From Dolomitihabitans soli (GTDB lineage: Bacteria; Actinomycetota; Actinomycetes; Streptosporangiales; Streptosporangiaceae), in contig NZ_JAKNTW010000013.1 in the NCBI RefSeq assembly GCF_022213955.1, positions 248,001 through 312,000 on the forward strand: 64,000 bases of DNA. The letters run 5' to 3'. The translations under genes and the position numbers were made by a program. This document shows positions 53,806 through 63,619 of the stretch, one piece after another; positions within the stretch are counted from its first letter, which is position 1, and every line of letters begins with the position of its first letter. The notes beneath the pieces were generated by a model that worked only from the letters and a program-made list of their open reading frames with translations, had not been told where the DNA came from and did no database searches.

Positions 53806-55023
53806 ATGCCCGAGGCAGTAATCGTCGCAACAGCACGTTCGCCGATCGGCCGCGCCTTCAAGGGGTCGCTCACGGACATCCGTCCCGACGACCTTGCCGC
53901 CCAGATGATCCAGGCGGCCCTGGCCAAGGTCCCCCAACTCGATCCCGCGGAGATCGACGACCTCATGCTCGGCTGCGGCCTGCCGGGCGGCGAGCAGGGT
54001 TTCAACATGGGCCGGGTGGTGGCCGTGATGCTCGGCCTTGACGGCGTGCCCGGCACGACCGTGACCCGCTACTGTTCCTCATCCCTGCAGACCACCCGGA
54101 TGGCCTTCCACGCGATCAAGGCGGGCGAGGGAGACGTGTTCATCTCGGCCGGGGTCGAGTGCGTCTCACGTTTCGCCAAGGGCAACTCCGACTCGTGGCC
54201 CGAGACCCACAACTCGATCTTCGGCGACGCCCGTGCGCGCACCCTCAAGCTGGCCGAGGGCGGCCAGACCTGGCAGGACCCCCGCGACGACGACCAGCTC
54301 CCCGACGTCTACGTCGCGATGGGCCAGACCGCGGAGAACGTGGCCGGCATCCGGGGCATCTCACGCAAGGAACAGGACGAGTTCGGCGTGCGGTCGCAGA
54401 ATCTCGCGGAGAAGTCGCTCGGCAACGGGTTCTGGGAGCAGGACATCACCCCTGCCACCCTGCCCTCCGGCGCCGTCGTCAGCAAGGACGACGGCCCCCG
54501 GCCCGGCACCACCTACGAGGCGGTGGCCGGGCTCAAGCCGGTGTTCCGCCCCGACGGCACCGTGACCGCCGGCAACTGCTGCGCCCTCAACGACGGGGCC
54601 GCCGCGGTGGTCGTGATGAGCGACACCAAGGCCGCCGAGCTGGGGCTCACCCCGCTGGCCAGGATCGTGTCCACGGGCGTCACCGGTCTGTCGCCGGAAA
54701 TCATGGGCCTGGGCCCGGTGGAGGCCACCAGGCAGGCGCTCGCCAGGGCCGGCATGTCGATCGACGACATCGACCTGGTCGAGATCAACGAGGCGTTCGC
54801 CGCCCAGGTGATCCCCTCCTACCGGGAGCTGGGCATCGAGCTCGACCGCCTCAACGTCAACGGCGGCGCCATCGCGGTCGGCCACCCCTTCGGCAGCACC
54901 GGCGCCCGGATCACCTCCACCCTGATCAACAGCCTCCGCTTCCACGACAAGTCCATCGGGCTTGAGACCATGTGCGTGGGCGGCGGCCAGGGCATGGCCA
55001 TGATCCTCGAACGCCTGAACTGA
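53806..55023 (+). CDS. Thiolase (acetyl-CoA C-acetyltransferase)
   Basis: A 405-residue thiolase. The nucleophilic Cys is in [12 protein letters not shown] (~88-90), then [17 protein letters not shown] (catalytic His) and CVGGGQGMA (second Cys). It should cleave or condense acyl-CoAs in beta-oxidation or acetoacetyl-CoA formation. Good ribosome site AGGAGAG before the ATG. Monocistronic; the preceding 110 bases are comparatively AT-rich and should hold its promoter. Confidence 0.94.
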
Positions 55024-55974: not shown

Positions 55975-56757
55975 CTAGTCGTTGCCCGAGAAGTAGCTGA
56001 CGAAGCGCAGCACCTCCAGGTAGATCCAGACCAGGCTGAGGGTGAGCCCGAAGGCGCACTGCCAGGCGAACTTCTCCGGTGCGCCCTGCGCCACGGCCTG
56101 CTCGACCATGTCGAAGTCGAGGAGCAGGAAGAAGCAGCCGAGCAGGATCATCGCGGCGCTGAAGATCCAGCCGAGCGGGCTGTCGGTGCGGATGCCGATG
56201 CCGCCGTCGACGAAGAACCCGGCGACCAGGTTGATCAGCATCAGGCCGATCGCGGCGATGGCCGCGGCGCCGACGAAGCGCACCAGCTTCGGCGTGACCC
56301 TGATGATCTTCAGCGAGTGGACGGCCAGCACCCCGCCGAAGGCGAGGGCCGTACCGAGCACCGCCTGGATCACGACGCCGTTGTAGAAGCTCTCGTACGT
56401 GTGGCTGAGCGCGCCCACGAAGACGCCGTAGAACAGCGCGTAGCCGAGGATCAGCACGGGGCTGGTGCTCTGCTTGAACGACGCGATCAGGGCGAGCACG
56501 ACGCCGACCAGCGCGAAGACCACCGCGATGCCCAGGGGCACGTTGAGCACCCACGCGGCGGCGGCCGCCACCACCAGGGTGCCCAGGGTCATGAACCCGC
56601 GCACGACGACGTCGTCGATCGTCATCTGCCGCTGGGCCGGGGGGGCGTACGACGGGGCGTCATACATGTTCTGGAGCTGGTCAGAGCTCGGAGTCGGCCC
56701 GCCCCAGGCCTGCTGGCCCTGGCGTTTCCGACTGAAAACGGGGTTCTTGCTCTCCAT
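55975..56757 (-). CDS. Bax inhibitor-1/YccA family membrane protein
   Basis: A 260-residue protein: cytoplasmic N terminus of ~45 residues with Tyr/Pro, then seven membrane helices. The family signature is seen in GYALFYGVFVGALSHTYE and LLLDFDMVEQAVAQGAPEKFAWQCAFGL, ending YLEVLRFVSYFSGND. The acidic pair used as a pH-dependent Ca2+ gate in BsYetJ may correspond to Asp in DFDM and the terminal Asp. Ion-leak function is inferred from the family. Confidence 0.92.
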   Translation of the reverse strand: MESKNPVFSRKRQGQQAWGGPTPSSDQLQNMYDAPSYAPPAQRQMTIDDVVVRGFMTLGTLVVAAAAAWVLNVPLGIAVVFALVGVVLALIASFKQSTSPVLILGYALFYGVFVGALSHTYESFYNGVVIQAVLGTALAFGGVLAVHSLKIIRVTPKLVRFVGAAAIAAIGLMLINLVAGFFVDGGIGIRTDSPLGWIFSAAMILLGCFFLLLDFDMVEQAVAQGAPEKFAWQCAFGLTLSLVWIYLEVLRFVSYFSGND

Positions 56758-56937: not shown

Positions 56938-57639
56938 TCACGCCTCCGAGCGGAGCACGGTGATCTCGTAGGAGTAACGGTCGCCACGATAGAGCGACCT
57001 GGCCACCTCCACCGCCCTGCCACGCTGGTCGTAGGCGGTCCGCTCGACGAGCATGGCGGGTGAGAAGGGGGCGGCGGCCAACTCCCCGGCCTCCTCCGGG
57101 TCGAGCACGGTGGCCCTGATCGTCTGGTCCGCCCGTTCGAGCCGGATCCGGTGCTCCCGTTCCAGCAGGTCGTAGAGGGAGACGTCGGCGGCGAGGCCGA
57201 GCAGGCCCGGCGCGATGGACACGGGCACGCACGACTCCTCCAGGCACATGGGCTCGCCGTCGGCGGTGCTCACCCGGCGCAGGCGGGTGACGGGCTCGGC
57301 CGGGCTGATCCCCAGCGCGTAGCCGACCCCGGCCCCGGCCGGGACCTCGGCCGCCGCCAGCAGGCGAGAGCCCGGAGTCAGCCCCCGGCTGCGCATGTCC
57401 TGGCTGAACGAGGTCAGCTCGATGGTCTTGGCGATGCGCTCGCGGCTGACGAACGTGCCCGAGCCCTGCACCCGGTATACCAGCCGGTCGGTCTCCAGCC
57501 GGTCGAAGGCGCGGCGGACGGTGAGCCTGCTGACCTCGAACAACTCGGCCAGGTCGCGCTCGGTGGGCAGCTTCGCCCCCGGCCCCAGCCGCTCGACGAG
57601 GGCCATCAGGTGATCCTTCAGCTGACCCGTCTTGGTCAT
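56938..57639 (-). CDS. GntR/HutC-family regulator (DasR/NagR-like)
   Basis: A 233-residue regulator: winged helix with TERDLAELFEVSRLTVRRAFDRLE and the wing YRVQGSGTFVSRERI, then a UTRA ligand domain (TRLRRVSTADGEPMCLEES; RADQTIRATVLDPEEAG). DasR-type proteins bind GlcN-6-P or GlcNAc-6-P. It is divergent from nanE with one dyad (CAATTGG-N6-CCAATTG) in the 85-base spacer, the expected arrangement for local autoregulation. The start ATG 57639 is placed at the domain boundary; the frame extends much further upstream, antisense to nanE. Confidence 0.9.
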   Translation of the reverse strand: MTKTGQLKDHLMALVERLGPGAKLPTERDLAELFEVSRLTVRRAFDRLETDRLVYRVQGSGTFVSRERIAKTIELTSFSQDMRSRGLTPGSRLLAAAEVPAGAGVGYALGISPAEPVTRLRRVSTADGEPMCLEESCVPVSIAPGLLGLAADVSLYDLLEREHRIRLERADQTIRATVLDPEEAGELAAAPFSPAMLVERTAYDQRGRAVEVARSLYRGDRYSYEITVLRSEA

Positions 57640-57687
57640 CCCAATTCCCGTGATCTGCGCATCGCCGTACCAGCTTACAGCGGGGGT

Positions 57688-57722
57688 TTGACGCTCGTTC
57701 GCCAATTGGGCTATACCAATTG
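57688..57722 (+). promoter_or_regulatory. nanE promoter with embedded GntR operator
   Basis: TTGACG (57688-57693), an 18-base spacer and TATACC (57712-57717) form a good sigma-70-like promoter. The perfect dyad CAATTGG-GCTATA-CCAATTG (57703-57722) overlaps its -10 box. TATACC is seven bases before the nanE GTG, so the transcript should be leaderless. Confidence 0.65.
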
Positions 57723-57724
57723 AC

Positions 57725-58468
57725 GTGAATCTGACAGCCAGGATGGCGGGCGGCCTCGTGATCAGTTGCCAGGCCCCCGACGGGCATCCGCTGCGCCGTA
57801 CCCCGGTCATCGCCCTGCTCGCCCGGTGCGCCGAGGAGGGCGGGGCCGCGGGTGTGCGGGTCAACGGCCCCGAGGACGTCCGCGCGGTCAGGGCGGCGGT
57901 GGGGCTGCCGATCATCGGCCTGGCCAAGGTCCCGCGGGAGAGCGCCCGGCCGCTCATCACACCGGGGTACGAGCTTGCCGCCCGGCTGGTCGAGGCCGGG
58001 GCCGACATGGTGGCCCTGGAGGCGACCGCGGAGGTGACCGGCGACCCGCGGGAGACGATCGAACGGGTCAGGACCCGTCTCGGCGTGCCGGTCATGGCCG
58101 ACGTCTCCACCCTCGGCGAAGGGCTCGCGGCCTGGGAGTGGGGCGCGGAACTGGTGTCCACGACCCTGTCCGGCTACACCCCCTACACCGCCACCCCCGC
58201 CACCCCCGCCACCCCCGGCACCCCCGGCACCCCCGGCACCCCCGGCACCCCCGGCGATGAGCCTGACCTCGATCTGGTCGCCCGGCTCGCCGCCCACGAC
58301 GTCCGCACCGTGGCCGAGGGCCGCCTGCGTACCGCCGAACACCTGGCCGCCGCCTTCGAACGCGGCGCCTGGGCCGTGGTCGTGGGCGGCGCGGCGACCG
58401 ACCCGCTCGCGATCACCCGCCGGCTCGTCCGCAGCACACCCGCCGCACAACGGGTCCAGGCGACGTGA
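57725..58468 (+). CDS. nanE: Putative N-acylglucosamine-6-phosphate 2-epimerase
   Basis: A 247-residue TIM-barrel of the NanE family, interconverting ManNAc-6-P and GlcNAc-6-P. Conserved pieces are GGLVISCQAP, GVRVNGPEDVRAVRAAV, PIIGLAKVPRE, MVALEATAE, VMADVSTLGEGL, TTLSGYTPY and AEGRLRTAEH. A loop after TTLSGYTPY is expanded by Thr-Pro-Ala/Gly triplets from a 9-bp tandem repeat, not present in typical members. The gene begins with a leaderless GTG and is followed by a ROK gene; both suit amino-sugar catabolism under the GntR regulator. Confidence 0.86.
   Translation: MNLTARMAGGLVISCQAPDGHPLRRTPVIALLARCAEEGGAAGVRVNGPEDVRAVRAAVGLPIIGLAKVPRESARPLITPGYELAARLVEAGADMVALEATAEVTGDPRETIERVRTRLGVPVMADVSTLGEGLAAWEWGAELVSTTLSGYTPYTATPATPATPGTPGTPGTPGTPGDEPDLDLVARLAAHDVRTVAEGRLRTAEHLAAAFERGAWAVVVGGAATDPLAITRRLVRSTPAAQRVQAT
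58190..58255. repeat. 9-bp tandem repeat within nanE
   Basis: Repeats of ACCCCCGCC and ACCCCCGGC encode Thr-Pro-Ala and Thr-Pro-Gly. About seven units are seen. Period is a multiple of 3, so copy changes alter loop length without frameshift. Confidence 0.9.
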
Positions 58469-58565
58469 CGACCACGACCACCAAGGACGGGACAAACCAG
58501 CCGATACGGGGGATCACAGGCATGAGGCAGGTCCGCCAGAACCAGGATCGGCCGGTGAGGGCGTG

Positions 58566-59599
58566 ATGACGGGCACGAGCGCGACCCGGCCGACGGAGAC
58601 GGAGACGGGGACAGGGACAGGGACGGAGACGCGGACGGGGACAGGGACAGGCGCGACGGTCGTCATCGGCGTCGACCTCGGCGGTACCAAGACGGCGGCC
58701 GGTGTCGTGACCCTCGACGGCCGTCTCCTCCACTCGGCCCACCTCCCCACTCCCGCCGCCTCCGGAGCCGCCGCGGTCCTGTCCCAGGCGGTACGGCTGG
58801 CCGCCGCCGAGGCCGCCTGGGCCGGCGAGGCGGGCCTGCGACCGGTGGCCTGCGGCGTCGGGAGCGCGGGCACCGTCGACGCCCGGGGCGAGGTCAGCCA
58901 TGCCACCACCGCGCTCCCCGGCTGGCGCGGCACCCCGCTGCGCGCCGCCTTCACCGCCGCCCTGGACCTCCCCGTCAGGGTGCTCAACGACGTGCACGCC
59001 TGGGCGCTCGGCGAGGCCCGCCTCGGCGCCGCCCTGCACAGCCGGACCGCCCTGGTCGTCACCGTCGGCACCGGGATCGGCGGTGCGCTCGTCGTGGACG
59101 GCGAGTTGGTCCCGGGCCGTACGGGCACGGCGGGCGCCCTCGGGCACCTCCCCGTCCCCGCGCCAGGTCCGGCACGCCGCTGCCCCTGCGGTCGCACCGG
59201 CCACCTGGAGGCGTACGCCTCCGGTCCCGCGATCCTCGCCCGCCACCGCGAACTCGGCGGCGCCGGCGAGGACCTGGCGGACGTCGCCGGGCTGGCCGCG
59301 GCGGCGATCCCCGCGCCATCGCGGTGATCACGGAGGCGGCCGGCCTCCTCGGTCGCGCCCTCGGCGGCCTGGTGACCGTCTTCGACCCGGACGTCGTCGT
59401 GCTCGGCGGCGGGGTGACCGCCGTCGGCGACCTCCTGCTCGACCCCCTCACGCGGGCCGTGCGGGAGGAGGCGCTGCCGGGGCCGGACCAGGTCGTGATC
59501 CGGCCCCCGGCCCTCGGCCGGTTCGGCGGGGTGCTCGGGGCCGCCGCCGCCGCGATCGGAGAACGGCCGGACGAGGGGAAGGACCGCGGCCGGGAATGA
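58566..59599 (+). pseudogene. ROK-family sugar kinase, interrupted by a frameshift
   Basis: An N-terminal frame (58566-59327) carries the ROK ATP motif VVIGVDLGGTKTAAGVV, VLNDVHAWALGEAR, VTVGTGIGGALVVDGELV and a metal-type CPCGRTGHLE, and stops at 59327 after an atypical LAAAAIPAPSR. The missing C terminus continues in another frame: read as D-P-R-A-I-A-V-I-T-E-A-A-G followed by LGRALGGLVTVFDPDVVVLGGG, which is exactly ROK-like, to 59599. One base is missing near 59300-59308. The N terminus also has ~10 hexamer repeats (58594-58651) giving Glu/Thr/Gly repeats. A sequencing error or a real pseudogene are both possible. Confidence 0.8.
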
Positions 59600-59629: not shown

Positions 59630-59882
59630 CCACCTCGATCTCGCCGGAAGCGATCTTCTCCGCCGTCGCACTGCGTCACAACACGGTTCCCGAAACGGTG
59701 CGTTCCGGCAGCGGTGAGCGACGAATTGATGACACTTCCGGTAACCGGATAACTATGTAACGAATTCGGCGCAACTGTGCGTAAAGGACTGCGCTTTAGT
59801 TCCGGACAACCGAACACATGCGAAACGGTCAGCTTCTACTTCACGCAGGTAGCGAACCGGTTACCGGTGGTTGACAGGGGGT

Positions 59883-59954
59883 GCCCCCGGCGGGACTCGA
59901 ACCCGCACTACAACCCTTTTAAGGGGTTTGCCTCTGCCATTGGGCTACGGGGGC
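59883..59954 (-). tRNA. tRNA with UAA anticodon (Leu by anticodon) but class I body
   Basis: A full 72-base cloverleaf on the minus strand: acceptor GCCCCCG/CGGGGGC, D arm GCCC..AGGC, anticodon stem AACCC/GGGTT around loop CTTAAAA (anticodon UAA, U33 present), five-base variable loop GTAGT, and T arm GCGGG-TTCGAGT-CCCGC. The next base is A and CCA is not encoded. True leucine tRNAs have a long variable arm; this one does not, so its amino acid identity is uncertain. TATGAT lies only six bases upstream, placing transcription start at about the mature 5' end. Confidence 0.85.
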
Positions 59955-60010
59955 GCCGTAATCATACGTAATAGACCACTCATAAGAGGAGCACAAGTTC
60001 GTATCAGGCG

Positions 60011-60580
60011 TCACACATGATGACGTAAGGGAGATTGCGGATGTCGCGCCCGGTGTACGGCACGAGCGGTGGGCATCCGGTCGAGGAAGAGAACGCCGTC
60101 GAGATGGTCGAGCTGATGCTGCAGGCAGCGGGCCTCGAACGCGTCCGTGTGAAACGTCAGTGATTCGCCGTCGCCGGGACGCTGGCCGGTGACGGTGATC
60201 CGGGTGGCCCGGCGGACCTCGCCGACGAGCCCGGGGACCGACAGGCAGCCCTCACGGGCGGTCTCCCAGCGGGCGGCCTGGGTGAGGCGCGGGTTGACCA
60301 GCACCAGCTCCCCCGCGCAGGAACGGGTCCTCGGGTGGCTGGAGACGTCGATGGCCAGCAGCCGCCAGCCCAGGCCGATCTGCGGCGCGGACACGCCGAG
60401 GCGGTCGTCGGCACGGCGCAGCGTGGCGAGGAGGTCGGCGGCGGCCTCGACCACCCGGGGATCGGCGGGATCGACGGGGGCCGCCATGGTGGTGAGCAGC
60501 GTGTGCGGCGCGTCGAGCACCTCGCGGGCCGTACCGGCCGGCGCGGTGGGCGCGGTCATCGGGGCGCGGGAGGGAGTCAC
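60011..60580 (-). CDS. Peptide deformylase-like protein with substituted catalytic residue
   Basis: A 189-residue PDF homologue. Motif 1 is GVSAPQIG (62-69; usual GxGxAAPQxG), motif 2 EGCLS (110-114) with the metal Cys, motif 3 HQLDH (155-159) where HExxH is expected: the catalytic Glu is Gln156. Metal ligands C112, H155 and H159 are kept. It starts by a GTGA overlap with the upstream ACT-protein gene. It may be inactive, impaired or altered in specificity. A 31-residue N-terminal extension precedes the fold. The tRNA gene follows on the same strand after 56 bases. Confidence 0.88.
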   Translation of the reverse strand: MTPSRAPMTAPTAPAGTAREVLDAPHTLLTTMAAPVDPADPRVVEAAADLLATLRRADDRLGVSAPQIGLGWRLLAIDVSSHPRTRSCAGELVLVNPRLTQAARWETAREGCLSVPGLVGEVRRATRITVTGQRPGDGESLTFHTDAFEARCLQHQLDHLDGVLFLDRMPTARAVHRARHPQSPLRHHV

Positions 60581-61131
60581 AGGAGCTCCGGCACGGCGGG
60601 GCGGAAGGTGATCTCGGCGCCGAGTCCGGCGCCGACGGCGGCGAGACGGCGCATCAGGGCGGCCACGTCGACGTCGCCGGGGATCCGGACGTCGGCGATC
60701 AGCACGTAGAGATCACCGCTGAGACGGCTGTTCATGCCCGTGATCGTCCCACGTTCGCATGCCAGCACGCCGCTGACCGCAGAGATGATGCCGGGCCGGT
60801 CGGCGCCGTGCACGCTCAGCACGAACCCCACGCCGTCGTCGGCCTCGCCCGGCGAGGTGCGGGCGAAGGGCCGGAACCAGGCGCGCGGGGAGGGCGCCGG
60901 GTCACGCAGGCCGTCCATCTCGACCGTGGTGATGACCAGGTCAGGGCAGTGGTCGCGGAGTTTCTCGGCGGCGAGCGTGCCCGAGACCAGCAGTGTCATC
61001 ACCACGTAGTCGCCGAGCAGCGTCATCGTGGAGTCCTGGATGTTGGCTCCCTGCTCGGCGATCGCCCCGGAGACCTCCGAGATCACGCCGGGGCGGTCGA
61101 TGCCGAGCACGGTGACAGCGGACAGGCCCAT
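60577..61131 (-). CDS. Glycine-cleavage-regulator-like protein with two ACT domains
   Basis: A 184-residue protein with two ACT modules: residues ~3-75 (AVTVLGIDRPGVISEVSGAI) and ~100-175 (VLSVHGADRPGIISAVSGVL). Each carries the D-R-P-G-I/V-I amino-acid-binding loop. This is the GcvR-like architecture; a role in sensing an amino acid such as glycine or serine is inferred. It overlaps the deformylase-like gene by GTGA. ATG 61131 is preferred; two GTG codons lie just upstream. Confidence 0.85.
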   Translation of the reverse strand: MGLSAVTVLGIDRPGVISEVSGAIAEQGANIQDSTMTLLGDYVVMTLLVSGTLAAEKLRDHCPDLVITTVEMDGLRDPAPSPRAWFRPFARTSPGEADDGVGFVLSVHGADRPGIISAVSGVLACERGTITGMNSRLSGDLYVLIADVRIPGDVDVAALMRRLAAVGAGLGAEITFRPAVPELL

Positions 61132-61233
61132 GTTCACCACTCTCCGCCCTCTCCCAGCCTCTCGGGTGCCCTTCCGAGACGGGAGTACGGCCTCGCTCCT
61201 CCGTGCGGTGGAGGCGCGAAGCCGTACCCGGGC

Positions 61234-62562
61234 TCAACGCGGGCGGTTGCTCGCGACCGCGGCCCTGAACTCGTCACGCGGGCGGTGGATCTCGCCGAGC
61301 GAGATCGTCTCCCGCTTGAAGAACAGCGCGAGGGTCCAGTCCACGACCACACGGACCTTCCGGTTCAGCGTGGGCACCCGCGACAGATGGTAGGTGCGGT
61401 GCATGAACCATGCAGGGAATCCGCGAAGCTTGACCCCGTAGACGTTCGCCACGCCCTGGTGGAGGCCGAGTCCGGCGACCGATCCGACATACTTGTGACG
61501 GTAATCGACAAGTTCCTCCCCCTTGAGGGTCCGCACGATGTTGTCGGCGAGGACCTTGGCCTGCCGTACGGCGTGCTGGGCGTTGGGGGCGCAGAACTCG
61601 CCGGGGTTGGTCACGTCCGGGACGCCCGCGATGTCGCCGGCGGTGAAGGCGCCGGGCATGCCGACGACGGTCAGGCGGGTGGTGGCCTTGATCCGGCCGC
61701 GCTCGTCGACGGGCAGATCGGCGGCGCCCACGATCGGGCTGGGCTTGACTCCCGCGGTCCAGACGAGCGTCTCGGCCTCGAAGCGCTCGCCGTCGGAGAG
61801 CACCACGTTGCCGTCCACACACGACTCCAGACGGGTGTCGAGCCGTACGTCGATGCCGCGCTCGCGGAGCTGCTCCAGGGTCCACTTGCCCATCTCCGGG
61901 CCGACCTCGGGCAGCACCCGGTTGGTCGCCTCGACGAGGACCCAGCGCAGGTCGGCCGGGGTGATGTTGCGGTAGTAACGGGTGGAGTCCTTGGCCATGT
62001 CCTCCAGCTCGGCCAGCGCCTCGACGCCGGCGAACCCGGCGCCGACCACGACGAACGTGAGCGCCCTGCGGCGGATCTCCTCGTCGTCGGTCGACTCGGC
62101 CACGTCGAGCTGGTGCAGGACCCGGTTGCGCAGGCCGATGGCCTCGCCGATGGTCTTGAAGCCGATGCCGATGTCGGTGAGGCCGGGAATCGGCAGCGTG
62201 CGGGACACCGAGCCGGCCGCCATCACGATGAGGTCGTAGCCGACCTCGCGGGGGGAGCCCTCGGCCGGTTCGAACAGCACGGTCCGGCCCGCGTGGTTGA
62301 CCTTGGTGACCTTGCCGCTGAGGATGCGCACCTTGGGCAGGACTCTGCGCAGCGGGGCCACGACGTGCCGCGGCGACAGGTTGCCCGCCGCCGCCTCGGG
62401 AAGGAATGGCTGGTAGGTCATGTAGGACTGCGGATCGACCAGCGTGATCCGCACGCTCCCGTCACGCAACTGCCGGGCGAGCCGGCGCTGCAGTCGTAGC
62501 GCGGTGTAGAGGCCGACGTAGCCGCCGCCGACGATCAGGATGTGCTTCGACTCCGGGTTCAC
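61234..62562 (-). CDS. ndh: Type II NADH dehydrogenase (NDH-2)
   Basis: A 442-residue membrane-bound flavoprotein passing electrons from NADH to quinone without proton pumping. FAD motif ILIVGGGYVGLYTALRL near the start, NAD motif FVVVGAGFAGVEALAELED (~170-188), FAD site TAGDIAGVPDV. The C-terminal ~80 residues with amphipathic helices (AWFMHRTYHL; LNRKVRVVVDWTLALFF) give membrane attachment as in mycobacterial Ndh. GTG start. A Rex-type dyad lies 24 bases upstream, overlapping the likely transcription start. Confidence 0.94.
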   Translation of the reverse strand: MNPESKHILIVGGGYVGLYTALRLQRRLARQLRDGSVRITLVDPQSYMTYQPFLPEAAAGNLSPRHVVAPLRRVLPKVRILSGKVTKVNHAGRTVLFEPAEGSPREVGYDLIVMAAGSVSRTLPIPGLTDIGIGFKTIGEAIGLRNRVLHQLDVAESTDDEEIRRRALTFVVVGAGFAGVEALAELEDMAKDSTRYYRNITPADLRWVLVEATNRVLPEVGPEMGKWTLEQLRERGIDVRLDTRLESCVDGNVVLSDGERFEAETLVWTAGVKPSPIVGAADLPVDERGRIKATTRLTVVGMPGAFTAGDIAGVPDVTNPGEFCAPNAQHAVRQAKVLADNIVRTLKGEELVDYRHKYVGSVAGLGLHQGVANVYGVKLRGFPAWFMHRTYHLSRVPTLNRKVRVVVDWTLALFFKRETISLGEIHRPRDEFRAAVASNRPR

Positions 62563-62732: not shown

Positions 62733-63536
62733 TCACTCTGACGTGCCCGCCAGCTCGGCGGCCCTGGTGAAGACGTCGTCGAGCATCTGTTCGGTCACCC
62801 GTCCGGTGAAGGTGTTCTGCTGGCTCGGGTGGTAGCAGCCGAGCAGGGTCGCCGTCGCTCCGGCGCGGGAGAGCCGGACCTCGGCGCCGTGGCCGAAGGG
62901 CGGACGGCTGCGCGGCAGGTCGTACCCCGCCTGCCGGAGCGCCGGCCAGAGCGCCTGCCAGGCGAAGCCGCCGAGCGCCACCACCACCCGTACGCCGGGG
63001 GCGACCAGGTCGACCTCCCTGGCCAGCCACGGAAGGCAGGTGGCGCGTTCCTCGGGCGTCGGCTTGTTCGCGGGCGGCGCGCAGCGGACGGCGGCGAGCA
63101 CCCGGGCGCCGATCAGCCGCTGGCCGTCGCCCGCGTGCGTGCTCGTCGGGAGGGCCGCGAACCCGGTCCTGTGCAGCGAGGCGAACAGCCAGTCGCCGCT
63201 CCTGTCGCCGGTGAAGACGCGCCCGGTGCGGTTGCCGCCGTGCGCGGCCGGCGCGAGCCCCACCAGCAGGACGCGCGGCTCGTCCGCACCCCACCCGGGG
63301 GTCGGCCGCCCCCAGTAGGTCTCCTCCGCGAAGGCCCGCCGCTTGACCTCCGCGACCTCCTCCCGCCAGGCGACGAGCCTGGGGCAGGCCCGGCACACGG
63401 ACTCCCGCGCGGCGAGCTCGGCGACCGTACGGCTGGCGGCCGCGAGCCGTACGACGTCGGCGGGATCGTGCGCGACGGGCGTGTCCGGCTCGGCGGGGTC
63501 ACCGGGCCAGCCGGAGCCGGGAGGTACGAAGGTCAT
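62733..63536 (-). CDS. Uracil-DNA glycosylase, family 5 (UdgB-like)
   Basis: A 267-residue DNA-repair enzyme. The N-terminal Fe-S cysteines are in [15 protein letters not shown], followed by the active-site loop [20 protein letters not shown] (Ala in place of the Asp used by other families, typical of UdgB) and the C-terminal [13 protein letters not shown] with the minor-groove-reading His-Pro-Ser. Two further cysteines ([15 protein letters not shown]) complete the cluster. It removes uracil and other deaminated bases. ATG 63536 chosen. About 170 bases separate it from ndh upstream of the Rex site; nothing else there. Confidence 0.9.
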
Positions 63537-63619
63537 GGGCACGATCGTGCCAGGAACGACAGAGGCGCGGTGCCCGTGGTGGGCACCGCGCCTACGTCAC
63601 GAAACGCGACCGCTCAGGA

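Follow-up and report, generated by a model that had tools for sequence, protein, structure and literature searches.

A short-armed tRNA-Leu(UAA), probably a genuine leucine tRNA, at the bldA locus of Dolomitihabitans soli

Which amino acid, if any, is brought to UUA codons by a tRNA that carries the leucine anticodon UAA on a body without a long variable arm? The question is raised by a tRNA gene of Dolomitihabitans soli, located in a stretch of 64,000 nucleotides that was analysed as a whole and is here called the window (G000:C3:248001-312000), from a genome of 10.8 Mb that is 99.99% complete. The gene and its putative promoter element are the following:

59882-59954, minus strand: class I tRNA-Leu(UAA) of 73 nt, with variable loop GUAGU, anticodon loop CUUAAAA and A73, CCA not encoded (ARAGORN and Rfam)
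59961-59966, minus strand: putative -10 promoter element TATGAT, 6 nt upstream of tRNA base 1 (read from the sequence)

The first-pass annotation had described the gene as a class I cloverleaf with a UAA anticodon, a five-base variable loop and A at the discriminator position, and this description is borne out by two programs. Indeed, ARAGORN calls a tRNA-Leu(taa) at 59880-59954 on the minus strand, and the covariance search that had been suggested as a check returns an end-to-end match to Rfam RF00005 on the same strand (59954-59882; 61.4 bits against a gathering score of 29; E 7.5e-11). The two agree on a complete cloverleaf with anticodon UAA, and ARAGORN and the Rfam alignment rule out both a hidden long arm and a different anticodon. 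In particular, the variable region measures 5 nt, whereas class II is defined by at least 10 nt forming an arm. The folding energy of the tRNA strand is -34.3 kcal/mol (z = -2.7). The lack of an encoded CCA was also correctly noted, as the genomic bases 3' of the tRNA read CC, but it is ordinary in this genome because CCA ends just 20 of the 63 tRNA records. Finally, since TATGAT lies 6 nt before base 1 and is found at the same place in most family homologues, the remark that the promoter appears leaderless holds as a prediction, the predicted transcription start coinciding with the 5' end of the tRNA or lying beside it.

The gene is widely conserved. A homologue is present in 48 of 60 sampled relatives, with the fetched homologues reading UAA, and the best named match, in Nonomuraea gerenzanensis, is 95.9% identical over the tRNA. 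Across 137 distinct homologues, the cells of the acceptor, anticodon and T stems are paired in 99.4% of cases and most pairs of these stems show compensatory changes, which places the window tRNA far beyond chance. A73 and U48 are each found in 162 of 162 class I UAA homologues, neither position being set by any search pattern; for the D-arm bases, by contrast, part of the conservation seen among the homologues follows from those patterns themselves.

To what extent does the cell depend on this tRNA? All 57 tRNAs of the genome above the Rfam cut-off were typed by anticodon and class, and the window tRNA is the only one among them with a UAA anticodon and the sole reader of UUA. A normal class II tRNA-Leu(UAA), i.e., bldA, which the first-pass annotation had proposed to look for elsewhere, is not found among these 57 tRNAs, and, of the sub-threshold hits, the three that were read are not tRNAs. 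The same holds for the family of the organism, as a class II UAA pattern searched in 150 of its genomes gave 5 matches, none of them tRNA-like, while as a positive control the same pattern finds bldA-type genes in a Streptomyces-like family. The leucine tRNAs of the genome with anticodons CAA, GAG and CAG are class II, and those with UAG and UAA are class I. The tRNA-Leu(UAG), located at positions 54156-54229 of another contig (G000:C35), is 77 nt long with its CCA and is the sole UAG leucine tRNA of the genome; elsewhere in the family, the tRNA with this anticodon may belong to either class. A single LeuRS gene is present (C26:127618-130053), and UUA is rare in the genome (27 in 82,117 codons, or 0.33 per 1000 codons).

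The first-pass annotation had taken a long variable arm to be a requirement for recognition of tRNA-Leu by LeuRS in bacteria, an assumption that does not survive what is known of E. coli, where leucine identity depends on A73, A15-U48, G18G19, A20a and tertiary pairs between the D and T loops, the variable arm being dispensable (review, PMC9976931). The window tRNA carries this set (A73, A14, the A15:U48 Levitt pair, G18G19 and A20a), which was established in E. coli and not with actinobacterial LeuRS, and which is common to all five leucine tRNAs of the genome. The body of the molecule also appears to be tied to leucine. A scan of viral contigs for the D-arm signature that placed no constraint on the anticodon recovered 124 tRNAs, and all 122 readable anticodons were those of leucine (UAA 50, UAG 34, CAA 25, AAG 6, GAG 6, CAG 1). 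Codon alignments point in the same direction. In 216 genes of the window contig compared with N. gerenzanensis, UUA aligns with Leu at 12 of 18 sites, against 22 of 38 for CUA, a direct test that comprises 18 sites only, UUA being rare. In other Actinomycetia with class I loci, 220 of the 367 UUA sites at these loci correspond to Leu in this genome, against 66% for other leucine codons. Five loci of low GC content make frequent use of UUA, and there 208 of 340 sites align with Leu, against 65%. No residue other than Leu is in excess at aligned UUA sites.

Altogether, with a probability of about 0.9, the window tRNA is a genuine leucine tRNA with a class I body at the bldA locus, serving to decode UUA and probably UUG as well. 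It would be transcribed from its own promoter starting at base 1, it would receive CCA from the CCA-adding enzyme, and the single ordinary LeuRS would charge it through A73, A14, A15:U48, G18G19 and A20a in the absence of a long arm. Judged from its sequence, this is an ordinary functional leucine tRNA for its lineage, of an unexpected structural class and little noticed.

The gene lies in a conserved neighbourhood, whose members are listed below from open reading frames and synteny, with names given by sequence resemblance:

53806-55023, plus strand: thiolase-like gene, far 3' flank of the conserved neighbourhood
55975-56757, minus strand: Bax1/YccA-like membrane protein gene, conserved, on the 3' side of the tRNA
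60011-60580, minus strand: peptide deformylase-like gene (def), upstream of the tRNA
60577-61140, minus strand: ACT-domain (glycine-cleavage-regulator-like) gene
61234-62562, minus strand: NADH dehydrogenase (type II)-like gene; in relatives, no other gene is found close to the tRNA as often
62733-63542, minus strand: uracil-DNA glycosylase-like gene

In 20-kb stretches read from class I and class II genomes, genes of class I, 74-79 nt long, and of class II, 83-89 nt long, occupy one locus on one strand, in the order mfd, mazG, eno, ftsB, DUF501, ppx, UDG and NDH, followed by ACT and def where these are present, and next by the tRNA, YccA/Bax1 and thiolase (again named by sequence resemblance). 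The class II genes at this locus include those of three genomes, G057, G113 and G207, whose designation as Streptomyces-like derives, among others, from the bldA-type sequence itself. A few loci lack the neighbourhood, e.g., L312, L315 and L346. As genes of both classes share the locus, the window gene is the counterpart of Streptomyces bldA by position, though it belongs to the other structural class. Synteny across families also rules out a mobile-element origin for the window copy, though comparable genes do occur on phages and plasmids. An apparent lineage-specific insert (56938-59599), lying between the tRNA and the YccA-like gene, contains, by sequence resemblance only, a GntR-type regulator on the minus strand and epimerase-like and ROK-family kinase-like genes on the plus strand, the ROK-like reading frame seeming split near 59324.

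The comparison with bldA, the class II tRNA-Leu(UAA) of Streptomyces, reveals likeness of sequence and locus; the window tRNA is not known to have a developmental role. The two share the UAA anticodon, the condition of sole UUA reader, and the same neighbourhood and orientation, along with an acceptor starting with GCCC, the D-loop arrangement A14-A15..GG.A, A73 and U48. On the other hand, bldA-type tRNAs have a long variable arm (83-86 nt genes in Streptomyces-like loci), G9 and a GGNGG D-stem, whereas the window tRNA has a 5-nt loop, A9 and a GCCC/GGC D-stem. Thus, of the traits that characterize bldA, sole reading of UUA with a UAA anticodon and a conserved locus are present in the window tRNA and class II structure is absent.

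A tRNA that works in translation might at the same time act as a developmental switch as bldA does in Streptomyces, a possibility that is compatible with the main reading and that we regard as improbable. It would fit with the locus shared with bldA-type genes, with the rarity of UUA and with what looks like a surplus of TTA within the first 50 codons of the 216 window-contig genes (17 against 4.1 expected), although this excess may stem from over-long calls of reading frames and CTT and CTA are likewise in excess near starts. TTA enrichment near gene starts has been reported for Streptomyces only, and Chandra and Chater saw no sign of a bldA switch beyond Streptomycineae (PMC4255298).

That the gene is a relic or has a role outside translation, as the first-pass annotation had envisaged alongside disuse, is less probable still. 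The model for such a fate would be tRNA-Other of Bacillus cereus, a pseudo-tRNA with a Trp anticodon (PMC3399842), and UUA is indeed very rare here; non-translational tRNA-like genes do exist. However, UUA codons are present in the genome and nothing else reads them, the stems covary, and UUA is common in conserved genes of low-GC relatives with the same tRNA type, as seen at the 340 sites of the five loci above. In addition, the cloverleaf is canonical and conserved, whereas tRNA-Other-like pseudo-tRNAs have an atypical structure.

The remaining proposal of the first-pass annotation, that a synthetase other than LeuRS charges the tRNA and UUA stands for another amino acid in the family, is hardly credible: the class I body and the sharing of A15, U48 and A73 by the five leucine tRNAs with one other tRNA of the genome, tRNA-Lys(UUU), could be taken in its favour, yet the leucine identity set, a body that occurs only with leucine anticodons and the alignment of UUA mainly with Leu make recoding very unlikely. 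Lysine determinants are absent from the anticodon UAA, and a class I LysRS, looked for in the genome, is not there. A link between class I LysRS and tRNA-Other was considered and dropped, as the former is missing from the genome and the latter has a Trp anticodon.

The window tRNA, taken as a genuine leucine tRNA, has many counterparts among Actinomycetia. A class I UAA pattern matched 200 of 394 genomes and a class II pattern 74, about 60 of them tRNA-like by hand count and 39 of these in one Streptomyces-like family; the patterns are not exhaustive, as about 134 genomes matched neither. There is no overlap, since none of the roughly 60 genomes with a tRNA-like class II match also matches the class I pattern. 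Named class I carriers include Mycobacterium, Nocardia, Rhodococcus, Gordonia, Corynebacterium, Arthrobacter, Microbacterium, Amycolatopsis, Streptosporangium, Actinomadura and Nanopelagicaceae, and both classes occur within families f11, f30 and f40. On the best tree of the locus, built from eno, ppx, DUF501 and mazG of 61 loci, the class labels need 8 changes, of which well-supported branches force at least 3; with class II constrained to one clade the AU test gives p = 0.09, so that a single switch is disfavoured, not formally rejected. Most likely, the two classes switched several times in situ at the bldA locus. With few exceptions, class I members have A9 and the GCCC/GGC D-stem in common, a pattern that suggests replacement by a single short-armed lineage and not independent losses of the arm on several occasions. 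Two forms may be intermediates between the classes: a tRNA-Leu(UAA) at the same locus in family f28 (L336 16983-17060, genome G119), whose variable region has 9 nt and whose D arm differs (GGCC..GAGCC), and one with an 8-nt variable region (L353, genome G048).

Short-armed leucine tRNAs have been met in other settings. Human mitochondrial tRNA-Leu(UUR) is likewise a UUR leucine tRNA without the long arm, with identity via A73 and A14 (PMC9976931), but it is organellar, of unrelated origin and weakly structured, whereas the window tRNA is a stable bacterial chromosomal one. Among bacteria, a tRNA-Leu(TAG) with a short variable loop has been reported from a tRNA cluster of Mycobacterium mucogenicum (PMC6582537); there it is an extra, cluster-borne isoacceptor beside the normal long-armed one, while the short form of the window is the only copy. 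For M. tuberculosis, a paper that does not treat short forms, anticodons or charging attributes long variable loops to tRNA-Leu-2, -3 and -5 and thus, by implication, not to -1 and -4 (PMC11541572). According to a 2023 review, tRNA-Leu is long-armed everywhere except in animal mitochondria, a statement contradicted by short-armed UUA readers in a large share of Actinomycetia, mycobacteria included. In the full-text literature searched, which leaves subscription journals mostly outside, no paper was found that presents class I tRNA-Leu(UAA) as the norm among actinobacteria or as the counterpart of bldA by position. What is unexpected is the wide spread of the short form, together with the locus that it shares with bldA-type genes. 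These tRNAs offer a natural test of what a bacterial LeuRS needs, and they may be misfiled by isotype models or tRNA-seq pipelines that expect a long arm. bldA itself is recast, as a differently built tRNA stands at the same locus in most relatives of Streptomyces.

Similar genes are also carried by phages. The Streptomyces phages CeilingFan (L360 401-475) and Genie2 (L367 394-467) encode a class I tRNA-Leu(UAA), while their hosts rely on class II bldA, and Cronobacter phage S13 has short tRNA-Leu genes with UAA and CAA. These tRNAs of actinobacteriophages and T4-like phages resemble the window tRNA in having the same or a similar D-arm, leucine anticodons, a short loop and A73; they differ in that they lie on phage genomes, frequently in the company of further tRNA genes, that their body also occurs with several leucine anticodons other than UAA, and that the host retains its own class II tRNAs. 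A phage-encoded class I reader of UUA might allow UUA to be translated regardless of the timing of host bldA. An array of 27 tRNA genes in 4 kb was also observed on a plasmid of Paenibacillus thiaminolyticus (L369, NZ_CP106993.1, 2652-6720); they are absent from the gene table of the plasmid, which omits RNA genes.

Within the family of D. soli, the class I tRNA-Leu(UAA) occurs in a further variant, as C33 replaces the near-universal U33 (loop CCTAAAA) in about 75 of 150 genomes, at loci that include L023, L025, L027-L030, L032, L034, L035, L037 and L038. In 400 kb of the one C33 genome tested (G021), TTA beyond the first 50 codons occurs once in 77,633 codons, compared with 39 in 224,432 codons of three stretches with U33 that resemble it in GC3 and in the use of CTA (p about 2e-4), which gives the impression of a UUA codon falling out of use there. 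A fuller scenario can be given roughly even odds, namely that the bldA locus switched between class II and class I several times in situ with its flanking genes kept, probably through replacement by a distinct short-armed lineage also found in phages, and that where this tRNA gained C33, UUA has almost gone and the codon is heading to unassigned. Separately, one genome of family f15 (G052:C1) has four class II tRNA-Leu(UAA)-like matches, which is unusual for a rare-codon tRNA.
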